From the NCBI GenBank assembly GCA_030706145.1, contig JAUZPB010000043.1, forward strand, positions 1 to 33,139: 33,139 nucleotides of DNA. The letters run 5' to 3'. The DNA is from Bacteroidota bacterium (GTDB taxonomy: Bacteria > Bacteroidota > Ignavibacteria > Ignavibacteriales > SURF-24). Shown here in pieces: positions 110 to 32,980 of the stretch. The position numbers and the translations under genes are program-made. Below the pieces are notes generated by a model. It searched no databases. It was not told where the DNA came from and saw only the letters and a program-made list of their open reading frames with translations. Each line of letters starts with the position of its first letter. Position 1 is the stretch's first letter.

Positions 110-1153
110 TTATACTGACTGTGGTTGCTTTGCAAACAGCTTCTGGTGCTCTTTGCCATTTCTGGCTTTCCAGCTTCCTTTGTGATATGCATAACCAGTT
201 ATTAATGGCATAGCAATTGTCGCTTCTGCATATACCATCTGTTCGTATGTAGTTTCAACTTTACCCCAGGAACTAGCTTCTTTCAGAGTTGAACCCGAAA
301 GAGCTCCATCTCGCTCATCTGCTACTGTTATCTGTACAGCATATTTATGCATTGGAGCAGATTCCTGCAATATATCTGCGGCAACAACTATATCCTGAGT
401 GAAATTCTTTGGAACTCCACCGCCAATCATGAAAATACCGCTATCTTTTGAGTTTATTTTAATTTGAGTCAATTCCAGAAAATCCTTTGCTGAATCTATT
501 GAAAGATGCTTGTCTGGATTTTTTGTCTGGTGCATAATAAACCCGAATCCTGCTGAACAATCTGAGAATGCTGGAACAAATATTGGCACATTTTTCTTGT
601 ATGCTGCATATACTATAGAATCTTCTACTTTTGGACCACCGTTGTTTTCAAGATACTTGCCCATCTCCCAAATGAATTCTCTTGAAGAATATGGACGCGG
701 CTCAAGACTATCTGCTATTTTGCCTATTGTTTCGTCGCATATCCTAAGCTCATCTTCGTCAATATATGTATCATATATTCTGTCAATTGCCAAATCTCTT
801 AAAAGATTATCATCACTCCATTTTGTTCCAATATAATGTTTGTAACCCAAGGCTTCAAAGAAATCCTGATCTACAATCAATGCACCTGTTGATACAATTG
901 CATCTACCATGTTGTTTTCAATCAGATCATAAACTACTTTCTTAAGCCCTGCGCTGAATATACTTCCTGCTAAGGTCAAAAATACAGTACAGTCTTTGTC
1001 TTTTAACATCATATCATAGATCTTTGCTGCGCGGTTAAGATCCCTTGCTGAAAATGCCATTTTTTCCATAGCATCAACCAAAGGCACAACATCATATTTC
1101 TTTATATCAATATGCTCAATGGTCTGTTTTAGGAAATCTTTTTTTTCTGCCAT
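110..1153 (-). CDS. Deoxyhypusine synthase family protein (bacterial DHS-like)
   Basis: This 347-residue protein belongs to the deoxyhypusine synthase family, NAD-dependent enzymes that transfer the aminobutyl group of spermidine. The catalytic-lysine motif is visible as SSWGK, with Lys298. A GGG turn at 244-246 and the NAD-fold context SAGFGF (200-205) also match. The length is close to that of eukaryotic and archaeal enzymes. Bacteria lack the eIF5A substrate, and bacterial homologues have been connected with homospermidine or spermidine formation, so the substrate is uncertain. The ATG is preceded by AAGGAG at a normal distance. The gene sits 39 bases downstream of an SDR gene on the same strand, so the two are probably co-transcribed, and a terminator follows. 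Family assignment is firm; the reaction is inferred. Confidence 0.88.
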   Translation of the reverse strand: MAEKKDFLKQTIEHIDIKKYDVVPLVDAMEKMAFSARDLNRAAKIYDMMLKDKDCTVFLTLAGSIFSAGLKKVVYDLIENNMVDAIVSTGALIVDQDFFEALGYKHYIGTKWSDDNLLRDLAIDRIYDTYIDEDELRICDETIGKIADSLEPRPYSSREFIWEMGKYLENNGGPKVEDSIVYAAYKKNVPIFVPAFSDCSAGFGFIMHQTKNPDKHLSIDSAKDFLELTQIKINSKDSGIFMIGGGVPKNFTQDIVVAADILQESAPMHKYAVQITVADERDGALSGSTLKEASSWGKVETTYEQMVYAEATIAMPLITGYAYHKGSWKARNGKEHQKLFAKQPQSV

Positions 1154-2439: not shown

Positions 2440-3273
2440 ATGACCTTACAAAGTATTAAAAGTGGAAAAGAATCTCTATGGGGAGCTATAGGATCGGTTC
2501 TTTTCCATATGATAGTTTTGATCTCTGCTATCTTGTTACTGAAGCTTAGCGGTAGTGGAGAGTTTTCTTCTTCAGGCTATGGTTATTATGTCGAAATTGG
2601 TTCCGTAAAGGGAGCTTTGGGGTCGAATAGGCAGGAAAATGAAGATAAGGGAAATCTTTTGCCTAAGACTGACCCAATATCAGAAAAAATTAATGATGAA
2701 GAAGATCGGATAAAAGAAAATAAAAAGGATTTAGTGAAACTAACTCCAAAGGATTCAAGATCAGAAGTCAAGACTTCAAAGCCTCTAAATCCTGGAGGTA
2801 CCTCTTCTGGAGCTTCTGGTGGTTACCAGAATATAGAATCAGCAGGTTTTGATACATCTTCACTTGGCCAGTTCTATAGAGAACCAACACTTAATGTTAG
2901 AATGCCGTATCCTCAGGGATGGGTTTACGTAGATCAGCAAAAAAAGAAAAAACTCGATGGCATTACTTTCTGGGCTTCAGGTAGTAATTTTAATCCTCCT
3001 CCTTATATACATGTTGAAGTAGTTGATAAATATCTGTTTAATCCTGATCAATATAAGTATAAATACGATTTCGAACATTTTACTGGTTTCTATAACGAAC
3101 CTGTCGAACTTGAAAACCAGGTCTCCCAGGTTATTTATTTACGCACAGAGGATGATAAAGACTTCACTATCAAATTAATTATGGGAAACCCTGCAGCATT
3201 CAAACAGTTCCAACCTGTATTCTTTGCCATAGTCAAATCATTCAAATTTGGGAGCTCTTTTTTCTGGAACTAG
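2440..3273 (+). CDS. Membrane-anchored TonB-like protein with a PsbP/Mog1-like C-terminal region
   Basis: This 277-residue protein has a cytoplasmic N-terminus, one hydrophobic segment at about 14-36, a charged Lys/Glu/Asp-rich linker at about 60-130 with a Gly/Ser stretch after it, and a folded C-terminal region at about 145-272. The layout resembles TonB-type envelope proteins, but the C-terminal region lacks the TonB/TolA fold signature. Its pattern (MPYPQGW near 154-160, then alternating strands ending IVKSFKF) is more like the PsbP/Mog1-type domains of secreted proteins. Function is unknown. The ATG follows AAAGG with almost no spacing and an in-frame TAG lies two codons upstream of it, so this is the only ordinary start, though a weak one. 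It is transcribed divergently from the SDR gene. Confidence 0.7.
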   Translation: MTLQSIKSGKESLWGAIGSVLFHMIVLISAILLLKLSGSGEFSSSGYGYYVEIGSVKGALGSNRQENEDKGNLLPKTDPISEKINDEEDRIKENKKDLVKLTPKDSRSEVKTSKPLNPGGTSSGASGGYQNIESAGFDTSSLGQFYREPTLNVRMPYPQGWVYVDQQKKKKLDGITFWASGSNFNPPPYIHVEVVDKYLFNPDQYKYKYDFEHFTGFYNEPVELENQVSQVIYLRTEDDKDFTIKLIMGNPAAFKQFQPVFFAIVKSFKFGSSFFWN

Positions 3274-11053: not shown

Positions 11054-11680
11054 GTGATTAAGAGTATTTTATATTTTATTAGTAGTCTGGTTGTCTTTTT
11101 AGCAGGTATGATCCTCTATGGCATGATCTTGAACCTCAGAGAGGTCACTTTGTCTGAGGCTGCTGCTCAAAAGCACTTAACTTATCTAACTAATATCCAT
11201 ATTATAGTTGAAAAACGGAAATATAAATTGGAACTGTATTCCGATACAACACTTGTGAAAACCTATAAGGCGGTTTTTGGCAGGAGCAGCTCTACTAAAA
11301 AATCATTCTTAAATGATAAAAGAACTCCTGTAGGAAAATATGTCATTTGTGATATTGATACTACTTCTCAGTATAGAAAATTTCTACGGCTGAACTTCCC
11401 TAATTCAATTGATATTCAGGAAGCTTATAAACAACGCTTAATTACGGAAAATGAGTTTTTAAGCGCTTCTGAAGCTCTTCAAAATAACCAATGCCCGAAA
11501 CTGGGAAGAATAAAAACTAATGATATTGGAATTCATGGCATAGGAAGACTAAATTTTATTTTTAAGAACTTGCCTTTCGTTTACAATTGGACTAATGGAT
11601 CAATTGCTGTTAGTAATGAAAATATTGATGAGATTTATTCGGTAATTAAAGTGGGAACTGAAGTTGAAATTAAGGAATAA
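11054..11680 (+). CDS. YkuD-fold (L,D-transpeptidase-like) membrane protein with Ser replacing the catalytic Cys
   Basis: This 208-residue protein has an N-terminal transmembrane anchor (about 4-26) and a periplasmic YkuD domain (about 46-206), the fold of enzymes that cross-link peptidoglycan. Family landmarks are KRTPVGKYVI (89-98), LRLNFPNSID (111-120), IHG with His161, and the NWTNGSIAVSN segment near the end. In active members the last segment carries an invariant Cys after Gly; here the codon is TCA, giving Ser183. It may therefore be inactive or use another chemistry. GTG is the likely start because the anchor requires it, but no clear ribosome-binding site is visible. Its stop overlaps the next gene by 17 bases. 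Confidence 0.8.
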   Translation: MIKSILYFISSLVVFLAGMILYGMILNLREVTLSEAAAQKHLTYLTNIHIIVEKRKYKLELYSDTTLVKTYKAVFGRSSSTKKSFLNDKRTPVGKYVICDIDTTSQYRKFLRLNFPNSIDIQEAYKQRLITENEFLSASEALQNNQCPKLGRIKTNDIGIHGIGRLNFIFKNLPFVYNWTNGSIAVSNENIDEIYSVIKVGTEVEIKE

Positions 11681-12320
11681 AAAAACTACATCTCTTTTTA
11701 TGGCTTTTCTCTTGGTCATGGCCTTTCAGGCTTGCAATAAAAAGGAAAATCAACAACCTATACCTCCAGTTATTTCACAGGATTCTGCAAAAGCACTTGA
11801 TAGACAACTTTTAAGCGAAAAAGTAAAAAAACAGCTGGGCGATAGTGCTCTTATTATCGAACCTGGTAAATATCAGAGTGACTCAACTGTTAATGGAGTA
11901 GTTGCTGGAACTGAAACAAATACTAAAAATCTCTGGGGTATCAAATTTATTTATTTTAAGAGCCAAAACGGTACGCTCCAAAAAGATTTTGAATCACCAC
12001 TTCTAAAGGGTTCTTTTAAGGATTGCATGGTTAGAAAGATTAAACTGGCAGATTCGAACTATGAAATGATCTATTATGATTCACAGGATTATTTTATAGG
12101 ATCAGGCGGCGGAGAGGTGTTTTCTTATATTGTTGATATGAATACAAAAATAGTCTATTCGGCTCACTTCTTTACTGTTCCGCAAAAACCGGTTTCTCTT
12201 TTTATTTCGCCTAATGTTGACAAAATGGAAATTAGGGAAATCTTCCTTAAACATTTTAAGAAGGATTATCCTGACTTAAAGGTTGTTAGTAAAGATTATA
12301 ACCTTGAAGATATATTTTAG
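11664..12320 (+). CDS. Hypothetical exported protein, probable lipoprotein
   Basis: I do not recognise the family of this 218-residue protein. It opens with a basic stretch (MKLRNKKTTS), a hydrophobic core, and FQAC at about 21-24 followed by a charged, polar stretch. This looks like a lipoprotein signal, although Phe at the -3 position is atypical. The mature part mixes strands and short helices, with a Gly-rich YFIGSGGGEVFSY segment near 140-152. The TTG at 11664 is preferred because it supplies the basic signal-peptide start; ATG at 11700 would leave only a very short signal. It overlaps the end of the YkuD-like gene by 17 bases and is followed 38 bases later by the Omp85 gene. Confidence 0.6.
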   Translation: MKLRNKKTTSLFMAFLLVMAFQACNKKENQQPIPPVISQDSAKALDRQLLSEKVKKQLGDSALIIEPGKYQSDSTVNGVVAGTETNTKNLWGIKFIYFKSQNGTLQKDFESPLLKGSFKDCMVRKIKLADSNYEMIYYDSQDYFIGSGGGEVFSYIVDMNTKIVYSAHFFTVPQKPVSLFISPNVDKMEIREIFLKHFKKDYPDLKVVSKDYNLEDIF

Positions 12321-12358: not shown

Positions 12359-14494
12359 ATGCCCAAAAAATACTTGTTTGTGGCTCTTGTCATATTACTG
12401 CTTTTGTCTTTCTCAAGCTCAACTTATGCTCAGAATGAGGCGGAGAGAATTCAATATGAACTTACTAGTATTGAATTTGAGGGCAATAATTCAATTCCAT
12501 CTTCTGCACTGGCAGATGTAATTGTCTCGAAACAAACTCCTAATTGGTTCTTTAAGTTTTTAAATAAATTTTCAGAAAGTATTGGACGAAAACCTCTGTA
12601 TTTTGATTCAACTAAGATTTCAGATGACCTGGCTTCACTGAAAAGTTACTATAGAGATAATGGCTTTTTTAATGCCTGGTTTTCTTATAACTTTAAGCTT
12701 GATAAAGATAAAAAAAACGCTGAGCTTACTTATAAAATAAACGAAGGTACCCGCTTCCTTATACGCAGCTTCGGCTATAATGGCCTCGATAGCCTCCCTA
12801 AGGAACTTATTCCAAAAATTAAAGACTATACAATTGATTCGGCTAATTATTACTCTAAAACTCTTGTTGAACAGAACACCATTCCTTTCTTGTCATTTCT
12901 TCGCGATAATGGCTTTATGCTTTGCAGCATTGCTCGCCCTGTCGTAAATATCTTTCCCGATTCAGGATATGTCGATATTAGGGCAGATATTGCCTTAGGA
13001 CGCCGATATATTATTGATTCCATTCGGGTTGAGAAAAGTGGTGTGGGGCGCCAAAAAGTAAAGGATGATCTGATAAAAAAAATTGTAAGCATTAGCCCTG
13101 GACAGTTTTATAGTGCCGATGAGAAACAAAGAGCTCAGGTGAGGCTCTATAGAACAAATCTCTTCTCTTCCGTACTTGTAAGTGCAATTACATCTGATAC
13201 TTCGGGCGACCGTGTCCCACTAAATATTACTGCTGATATAGGATCTATGAATGAACTATCTCCCGAAATTATTATTAATAATTCAAACAGCACTTTTAAT
13301 TTGGGCCTTGGTGCCAACTATCAGAAAAGAAATTTTTTGGGCGAAGCAAGAACTTTTACGCTTTCGGGCAATTTTGCAATTCAGGACTTTTTTAAACAAG
13401 GTGTGATACCTCATATACCTAACTTTCTTCTGCTTGGTGATACAACAGTTTTTGGATACCTTGACCTTAGAGCCTCTGTCGAGCAGCCCTATGTCTTTAA
13501 CCACAGAATAACCGGAAGGCTCGAAACTTACTGGAATGAAAATAAACAAAAGGATAACAAAACAGTTACTTATGGCTCAAAATTAAGCTTTGATTTTGAA
13601 CTTCCTAAATTTGTCTATATAAATTCACTCCAGATATATTATTCGGTTGAAAGATCAGTTTATGATTTTCAAATTGATTATGTTAAAAGACTCTTAAGAG
13701 ATAAGTTTGCTGGACAGAAAGTTAATCCTGATACAATAAATTTTAAACTGGATACTAAAAGGCAATTTTCTTCACTCTTAGGGGCTGATATTGGCGCCAA
13801 TAAGACTAATAATCTGCTTTTCCCTACTGCAGGATACAATATTTCCTTGACTTTGGAAGAAGCTAATCTGATTCCGGCAATACTTAACTTTCTCGGGACG
13901 AATCTTTCTTATATTAGTCAATTCTATAGGATGCAGTCTACTTTTATTTATTATCCAAACATATATAATTCAACAACATCTGCAGTTGGTATTAAACTCA
14001 AGACTGGATATCTTCAGGCTTATGCTGGTGATAAAAGCGAAGTCCCATTAAATAAAAGATTTATGGCTGGCGGAAGTAACTCTGTCCGTGGCTGGAGAGC
14101 TAGAGAATTAGTGCCTAATAGATCTCTTAATTTTTCGCTCCTTTCCTCAAGTGTTGACCTTGCAGATTATTTACTTAGAGATTATCCGATTGGTGGACGC
14201 TTTCTTTTAGAGGGGTCCTTTGAGACTAGAAACAGGTTGTTTGGTCAGTTCGGTGCGGCTGTCTTTCTCGATTATGGAAATACATGGGAAAGTTATAAAG
14301 ACTTTTCCTTTAATCAATTGGCTGTAGCCTTTGGTTTTGGTTTTAGGTATTACTCCCCATTTGCACCAATCAGGATAGATTTTGGCTTTAAGGGATATGA
14401 CCCAGCATCTAAGGAAAATTTCTTTAAGATAATTAAAGGAAAGACTCTGCTGGATATAATTACTTTGCATCTTGGAATAGGTGAGGCTTTCTAG
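12359..14494 (+). CDS. Omp85-family outer-membrane protein (BamA/TamA-like) with POTRA repeats
   Basis: This 711-residue protein has a signal peptide ending in YAQ (about 23-25). Then come about three POTRA-like repeats (about 33-130, 131-210 and 211-290, with SIEFEGNNSI opening the first) and a C-terminal 16-strand-type beta barrel (about 300-711). The Omp85 barrel signature is present as VRGW (576-579) in GGSNSVRGW, and the chain ends in an aromatic residue (Phe), as expected for barrel insertion. It is shorter than a standard BamA (about 800), so a TamA-like or accessory Omp85 role is more likely than the central BamA. No ribosome-binding site is obvious. It follows the lipoprotein gene by 38 bases. 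Confidence 0.85.
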   Translation: MPKKYLFVALVILLLLSFSSSTYAQNEAERIQYELTSIEFEGNNSIPSSALADVIVSKQTPNWFFKFLNKFSESIGRKPLYFDSTKISDDLASLKSYYRDNGFFNAWFSYNFKLDKDKKNAELTYKINEGTRFLIRSFGYNGLDSLPKELIPKIKDYTIDSANYYSKTLVEQNTIPFLSFLRDNGFMLCSIARPVVNIFPDSGYVDIRADIALGRRYIIDSIRVEKSGVGRQKVKDDLIKKIVSISPGQFYSADEKQRAQVRLYRTNLFSSVLVSAITSDTSGDRVPLNITADIGSMNELSPEIIINNSNSTFNLGLGANYQKRNFLGEARTFTLSGNFAIQDFFKQGVIPHIPNFLLLGDTTVFGYLDLRASVEQPYVFNHRITGRLETYWNENKQKDNKTVTYGSKLSFDFELPKFVYINSLQIYYSVERSVYDFQIDYVKRLLRDKFAGQKVNPDTINFKLDTKRQFSSLLGADIGANKTNNLLFPTAGYNISLTLEEANLIPAILNFLGTNLSYISQFYRMQSTFIYYPNIYNSTTSAVGIKLKTGYLQAYAGDKSEVPLNKRFMAGGSNSVRGWRARELVPNRSLNFSLLSSSVDLADYLLRDYPIGGRFLLEGSFETRNRLFGQFGAAVFLDYGNTWESYKDFSFNQLAVAFGFGFRYYSPFAPIRIDFGFKGYDPASKENFFKIIKGKTLLDIITLHLGIGEAF

Positions 14495-31708: not shown

Positions 31709-32980
31709 ATGCAATTATTTGAACCAGGCCCGTTTCATTACCTTAACAATAAGTTGTTTTGTGAACATAAATCTGTTGAGGAGATTATTTCTACTGTAGG
31801 TACCCCTTCATATATATACAGTAAACAGTATTTTACCGAACGTTTCAAAGAATTTGATGAAGCCTTCAATGATGTTAGTCACTCAATTTTCTTTGCAGTA
31901 AAATCGAATTTTAACCTGAATGTTATGAAAATATTCTCAGACTTGGGCAGTGGTTTAGATGTAAATTCAGCTGGCGAACTCTATAGAGCAAAGAAGATTG
32001 GAACAGATCCTTCAAAAATTATTATGTCTGGAGTAGGTAAAACAAAAGAGGAGATAAAACTAGCTCTTGAATATAATATTAAACTAATTAAGGCTGAGTC
32101 TTTAGAGGAATTAAAAATTATCAACGATGTCGCTGGCCAGCTAGATAAAATTGCAAGAGTAGCCTTTAGAGTAAATCCAAATGTTGATGCTAAGACACAT
32201 CCATATATTTCAACCGGATTAGCAGAAAACAAGTTCGGTATTGATGCTTCAAATGCAGAGGAGATCTATAAGATTGGTTCGGATCTTAAGAATATAGCTC
32301 TTACAGGCCTGGATATGCACATTGGATCACAAATAACAACAACAGCTCCTTTTGTGGAGGCTATTGAAAAAATGGCCGAGCTTTATACTAGAATTAAATC
32401 ATTTGGCATTCCTTTGGCTCATTTCGACATTGGTGGTGGTATAGGCGTAAGATATAAAGATGAAAAGGTCTTTACTCCTCAGGAATTAGCTACAGCTATT
32501 AAACCAATCATTAAACAGTTGAATTGTGAGATAATGTTTGAACCTGGCAGATACCTTACAGCTAATGGCGGAATTTTGGTTGCCGAATTACTCTATACGA
32601 AAAAGAACAGAAACAAAATGTTTTATGTGACAGATGCCGCAATGACTGAACTTATTAGGCCAAGTCTTTATAGCGCTTATCACCATGTTCAACCCGTGGT
32701 AATCAATAGTGAAAGAGAAACTATCAAAGCTGACATTGTTGGCCCTGTCTGCGAAAGCAGCGACTTTATTGCTAAAAACAGGGAGATTCAGCAGTGTCAG
32801 GCAGGCCAAAAACTTGCCGTTATGTCAACAGGTGCTTATGGAATGGTTATGGCTTCTAATTATAATGGTAGGCGCCGTCCGCCAGAAATAATAGTCGATG
32901 GAGATAAATTCTATACCGCAAGAGGCCGTGAAAGCTTTGAACATCTCCTTTGGGATGAAGAAGTAATTAAAGAAATCTAA
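31709..32980 (+). CDS. lysA: Diaminopimelate decarboxylase
   Basis: This 423-residue PLP enzyme converts meso-diaminopimelate to lysine. The PLP lysine is Lys65 in FFAVKSNFNLNV. Further motifs are GSGLDVNSAGEL (about 79-90), GLDMHIGSQI, HFDIGGGIGVRY, EPGRYL, and the substrate-site GPVCESSDF with Cys348. Length is normal. A GAGGA site sits just ahead of the ATG. No other lysine gene is adjacent. The next gene, at 33025, is in the same orientation. Confidence 0.96.
   Translation: MQLFEPGPFHYLNNKLFCEHKSVEEIISTVGTPSYIYSKQYFTERFKEFDEAFNDVSHSIFFAVKSNFNLNVMKIFSDLGSGLDVNSAGELYRAKKIGTDPSKIIMSGVGKTKEEIKLALEYNIKLIKAESLEELKIINDVAGQLDKIARVAFRVNPNVDAKTHPYISTGLAENKFGIDASNAEEIYKIGSDLKNIALTGLDMHIGSQITTTAPFVEAIEKMAELYTRIKSFGIPLAHFDIGGGIGVRYKDEKVFTPQELATAIKPIIKQLNCEIMFEPGRYLTANGGILVAELLYTKKNRNKMFYVTDAAMTELIRPSLYSAYHHVQPVVINSERETIKADIVGPVCESSDFIAKNREIQQCQAGQKLAVMSTGAYGMVMASNYNGRRRPPEIIVDGDKFYTARGRESFEHLLWDEEVIKEI

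Follow-up and report, generated by a model that had tools for sequence, protein, structure and literature searches.

YkuD proteins are considered to be cysteine enzymes. In E. coli DpaA, one of the closest described systems, Lys83 is placed on the mDAP carboxylate and is essential, as its loss abolishes activity, and an alanine (Ala145) is found where many transpeptidases have Arg (PMC10653827). When the catalytic cysteine of LdtMt2 was replaced by serine (C354S), the protein gave no product, yet it was crystallised with its natural substrate (PMC11410929; 8pxy). Serine-dependent turnover of beta-lactams has been described for the YkuD fold of Lpg1514; because it is another serine that acts there, with the protein's own Cys still present (PMC13400389), this is not a direct precedent for a serine at the nucleophile position. 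In the literature that we searched, with partial coverage, no report was found of a YkuD family in which Ser is naturally fixed at that position.

The window (the whole 33,139-nucleotide stretch of Ignavibacteriales DNA that was analysed) contains an ORF, ykuD-S, that encodes a genuine YkuD-domain protein (Table 1). Its match to PF03734 scores 57.9 bits (E 2.3e-15), where the curated cut-off is 23.4 bits. An AlphaFold model, based on 5 sequences, has a pLDDT of 75.8 and is poor at the active-site loop (pLDDT <50 at residues 165–179), and for this reason we claim no pocket distances. A structure search with the model returned mostly LDTs among the top 50 matches (Z 12–15.8, with the highest Z over ~110 residues); as judged from a predicted model, they establish the YkuD fold without discriminating between its subtypes. 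Weak matches to glucosamine-6-phosphate deaminase (E 0.005–0.02) fit no YkuD feature and were discarded as chance. The hydrophobic N-terminal helix is predicted to be an inner-membrane anchor, and inspection of the N-terminal sequence found no lipobox. The host genome also carries canonical Cys YkuD proteins, among them L001, which is long, LDT-like and has SHGCVRL, and the DpaA-like L004, with SGCFAM, so the ordinary activities are still available to the cell and ykuD-S is a specialised paralogue. Elsewhere, the window encodes a deoxyhypusine synthase family protein, in a bacterium (110–1153, minus strand; PF01916, E 1.6e-102), a 277-aa ORF with no Pfam family match (2440–3273, plus strand) and, at its other end, an Orn/Arg/DAP decarboxylase family protein (31709–32977).

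Table 1. Positions of ykuD-S, its sequence features and the two genes downstream, in window coordinates.
Feature	Coordinates	Strand	Residues or size	Description
ykuD-S	11054..11680	+	208 aa, GTG start	YkuD-domain protein, Ser at nucleophile position
N-terminal hydrophobic helix	11057..11134	+	2–27	Seen in sequence; AlphaFold helix 2–27
YkuD domain	11198..11671	+	49–206	PF03734 match; structure matches
Lys83	11300..11302	+	83	Aligned with diaminopimelate-binding Lys83 of E. coli DpaA (profile alignment to 8ikr)
Cys99	11348..11350	+	99	Clade-specific, 88/92
Cys147	11492..11494	+	147	Clade-specific, 83/92; never without Cys99
His161	11534..11536	+	161	Conserved HG histidine; 74/92 in Ser clade, 47/47 in Cys relatives
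Loop beside catalytic loop	11555..11578	+	168–175	Invariant Leu173-Pro174-Phe175
Catalytic loop NWTNGS	11585..11602	+		Ser183 (TCA, 11600–11602) replaces Cys
Small lipoprotein gene	11664..12320	+		Overlaps end of ykuD-S
Omp85-superfamily outer-membrane protein	12359..14494	+		POTRA domains; PF01103 E 6e-33, PF07244 E 1e-18

Ser183 stands within NWTNGSIAV, at the position of the YkuD-enzyme Cys. The ORF, its coordinates and the TCA codon are as the first-pass annotation had given them, and TCA is indeed two changes away from TGT or TGC. That annotation had also named the outcome that would undo its claim, a Ser confined to this one assembly or placed in the column by misalignment; we find instead that Ser is fixed among the relatives, in 92/92 non-redundant orthologues. 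Homologues were present in 86 of 96 relative genomes and were also taken, with flanking DNA, from named Ignavibacteria and Ignavibacteriales records. Every full-length orthologue of this first set has Ser, and Cys occurs only in three more distant paralogues. A class-wide profile search added a sister family from 5 genomes (G105, G114, G123, G132 and G141), all with Ser, so that the set of 92 covers Ignavibacteriales and this one additional family from within the class. The Ser183 codons are mostly TCN, with AGC in one orthologue (L048) and two counts of AGT, and thus both Ser codon classes are represented. Outside the Ser clade Cys is found in 47/47 relatives, with 13/13 among the distant sequences and 34/34 among the nearest. 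The two sets can be aligned unambiguously and without gaps through W-T-x-G-[SC]-[IVA]-A. Together with dN/dS values far below 1, these observations rule out an assembly error, a pseudogene or a misalignment, to which we assign next to no probability. Cys99 or Cys147 was considered as a displaced nucleophile and rejected, as each is missing in some members and they lie in a strand and an inserted loop, outside the catalytic loop. A DNA pattern for WTxGSxA was run over 99 genomes of the phylum, and those matches outside the clade that were fetched and translated are unrelated proteins or lack a YkuD sequence; in viral contigs there were 23 pattern matches, none of which encodes a relative. A separate Cys-type YkuD family with DWTxGC exists in the same class (L093–L095, L104–L113) and accompanies ykuD-S in a small number of genomes (G014, G050, G093).

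To see which way the residue had changed, we searched 395 genomes of the phylum, which supplied the 34 closer outgroup sequences, and built the tree with the Ser and His columns left out. The Ser and Cys states require one change on this tree, with the Ser set forming one side of a branch (SH-aLRT 92), although it is a quick tree with long outgroup branches and the exact placement is uncertain. A tree with only the distant outgroup again gives a single Ser group (support 100). With the root placed on the distant Cys set, the nearer Cys sequences are not monophyletic, which makes Ser the derived state; we conclude that Cys changed to Ser once. Since then ykuD-S has been under purifying selection. 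Close pairs within the Ser clade have dN/dS of 0.02–0.15, and S183 is unchanged across ~31 substitutions per site, as are G23, K69, G76, P92, G94, P116, G162, G164, L173, P174, F175, W179, T180 and E193.

The pocket gives an indication of what the ancestor may have been. The first-pass annotation had aligned this segment with the catalytic loop of L,D-transpeptidases; it is a YkuD catalytic loop, but the parent type is no classical L,D-transpeptidase, as its WTxG[C/S]IA frame is not SHGCIR and is nearer to the hydrolase-type proteins DpaA/YafK and Csd6 than to the cross-linking enzymes. The L,D-transpeptidase motif HxxX14–17[S/T]HGCxN with Cys is absent, WTNGS being found in the window, and the DpaA/YafK equivalog NF040599 of NCBIfam gives 18.3 bits against a cut-off of 365. 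The best profile matches among solved structures are Csd6 (E 2.7e-5) and DpaA (E 5e-5). Relative to DpaA, Ser183 takes the place of catalytic Cys143 while the essential mDAP-binding lysine is retained, an assignment made after the chain numbering of 8ikr had been checked against Cys143. Position 83 is Lys or Arg in 84/92 Ser proteins and Lys in 47/47 Cys proteins, the DpaA-Tyr109-like aromatic at position 107 is Y in 78 and F in 10 of 92, and the TPxG and WTxG pocket frame is kept. The residue equivalent to DpaA Ala145 is Ala185. As Csd6 and DpaA are the best profile relatives, Lys83 aligns and Ala185 corresponds to Ala145, ykuD-S probably descends from a hydrolase-type YkuD protein.

Such an ancestor would suit an enzyme that has kept its chemistry with a new nucleophile, in which Ser183, assisted by His161 where that is present, acts in an L,D-carboxypeptidase or amidase and the protein is a thiol-free YkuD hydrolase. 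Ser183 never varies, nor do W179, T180, G162 and E193, His161 is kept in 74/92 orthologues, and a YafK protein turns over beta-lactams in a Ser-dependent manner, via a different serine (PMC13400389). The column around Ser132 of Lpg1514 (column 105, by an estimated and approximate correspondence) is, however, Ser in only 23/92, and His161 is relaxed in the Ser clade. Another residue stands there in 18/92 Ser proteins (Gln in 15, Glu in 2, Ile in 1) and in 0/47 Cys relatives (Fisher p 3.7e-4, an approximate value owing to relatedness), and the replacements amount to 12–13 separate changes on the tree, some 12 losses with Ser unchanged. The landmarks that the annotation took to be kept are present in the window, both His161 and NWTNG, but the histidine is not fixed in the clade. 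Because His161 was lost repeatedly while Ser stayed, and because the LdtMt2 C354S protein gave no product (PMC11410929), we regard serine chemistry as the less likely half of the binding-or-catalysis alternative that the annotation had posed, and an active serine enzyme as an unlikely, if credible, account. The wider proposal that the YkuD fold switched once to serine catalysis, and that the whole order runs a serine L,D-hydrolase coupled to Omp85, appears to us rather doubtful.

Two further features mark the clade. The span from H161 to W179 is 19 in 92/92 Ser proteins, whereas it is 10–11 in 29/34 of the nearest Cys proteins, 17 in the other 5/34 and 19 in the distant Cys set; the invariant LPF is therefore a clade feature, but these spans would allow either a lengthening or a shortening of the loop over the tree. 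Cys99 and Cys147 are both present in 83/92 Ser proteins and are absent in Cys-type relatives, and a disulfide between them is possible judging from this co-occurrence.

The gene order around ykuD-S is pyrH, frr, a malic enzyme-PTA gene, ykuD-S, the small lipoprotein, Omp85 and yicC. The overlap of ykuD-S with the lipoprotein gene makes translational coupling probable. The lipoprotein has no Pfam family and no structure match at E ≤0.001, and in relatives it carries a canonical lipobox (e.g., LASC, IAGC). A lipoprotein homologue lies downstream in 51/91 Ser loci, Omp85 in 85/91 and one or both in 91/91, with 45 loci having the lipoprotein and then Omp85, 40 having Omp85 directly and 6 having only the lipoprotein within the flank. 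In one genome (L150), ykuD-S and the lipoprotein gene are found together, away from Omp85. Where ykuD-S has been lost, Omp85 comes immediately after frr in one genus, and two genomes keep the lipoprotein; an Omp85 match is kept in all sampled genomes. The context supports a functional linkage but not an obligate dependence, and given the widely conserved pyrH-frr operon context the adjacency to Omp85 may be partly historical. The host genome has a second Omp85 copy (G000:C25:4019-6163, upstream side = L149), 49% identical and without a ykuD-S neighbour.

This constant gene context, along with the invariant LPF loop that adjoins the catalytic loop, would also be expected of a pure protein–protein scaffold in which the loop fills the old cleft, there is no contact with peptidoglycan, Ser183 is structural and the protein serves as an inner-membrane platform for Omp85 or the lipoprotein. 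The 8/92 members without Lys83, four of which also lack His161, agree with this. Most members, however, keep Lys83, the TPxG frame and the aromatic at position 107, which suggests retained ligand binding and leads us to consider the scaffold improbable.

We favor, at a probability of roughly 0.55, a reading in which ykuD-S is a catalytically dead YkuD pseudoenzyme, anchored in the inner membrane, that binds stem peptides and works with Omp85. The fixed and selected Ser, the largely kept pocket Lys and the low dN/dS speak for the binding or scaffold role among those the annotation offered, and the single change separating Ser in 92/92 from Cys in 47/47, the relaxation of His161 and the gene context point to a pseudoenzyme. 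The loss of activity, the binding of stem peptides and the physical partnership with Omp85 are the parts of this reading that we infer. In this pseudoenzyme model, one substitution would have taken the thiol nucleophile from a Cys-type YkuD hydrolase ancestor, with the fold, the TPxG/WTxG pocket frame and, in most members, the mDAP-carboxylate Lys being retained. The periplasmic protein would then bind peptidoglycan stem peptides, neither cutting nor joining them, and would keep a point of the inner membrane close to the wall, in concert with the lipoprotein and Omp85, during envelope assembly. The LdtMt2 C354S data indicate that Ser at this position can leave binding without catalysis. Against this reading, Ser is never replaced by Ala, Gly or Thr, a stricter conservation than binding alone would obviously require and one that a nucleophile could equally explain; the invariance may reflect either a hydroxyl contact to ligand or backbone or genuine serine chemistry. 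His161 is moreover still present in 80% of Ser proteins, and stem-peptide binding may not be universal given the loss of Lys83 in 8/92; also to be set against the reading are the two genomes with the lipoprotein but without ykuD-S and the retention of an Omp85 match in all sampled genomes.

An ancient, fixed Ser would be the natural counterpart of the C-to-S trap made in the laboratory, and with this family one can test whether a YkuD protein has become a wall-binding pseudoenzyme linked to the assembly of the outer membrane or has switched its nucleophile. Were the serine-hydrolase reading true, this would be an enzyme without the thiol that carbapenems acylate. A match to PF03734 alone is in any case no warrant for naming a protein an L,D-transpeptidase.

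The nearest relatives of ykuD-S are Cys-type NWTQGC YkuD proteins from other classes of the phylum (L171–L204), which share a helical insertion around residues 120–150 and the HGxG motif but have Cys and His in 34/34, a shorter pre-Trp loop in 29/34 and no conserved Cys pair. E. coli DpaA (YafK/LdtF, PDB 8IKR) is alike in its YkuD fold, aligned Lys83 and Ala after the catalytic loop; DpaA, however, is an active amidase with Cys143, whereas ykuD-S has Ser, a membrane anchor, the LPF loop and the Cys pair. The L,D-carboxypeptidases Csd6 (4XZZ/4Y4V) and Pgp2 (6XJ6) and Bdellovibrio Bd1075 (7O21) have the same fold (Z 13–14 over 121–129 residues); all are longer than ykuD-S, and Cys is the catalytic residue of Csd6 and Pgp2. 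Classical L,D-transpeptidases (B. subtilis YkuD 1Y7M, LdtMt1 and LdtMt2) also share the fold (Z up to 15.8), but they carry HxxX14–17[S/T]HGCxN with Cys and a second His in place of WTNGS. A natural precedent for a Cys-to-Ser pseudoenzyme is Plasmodium SERA5, a papain-like protein of unrelated fold and organism with Ser for Cys, which is reported as non-enzymatic (PMC4671257).
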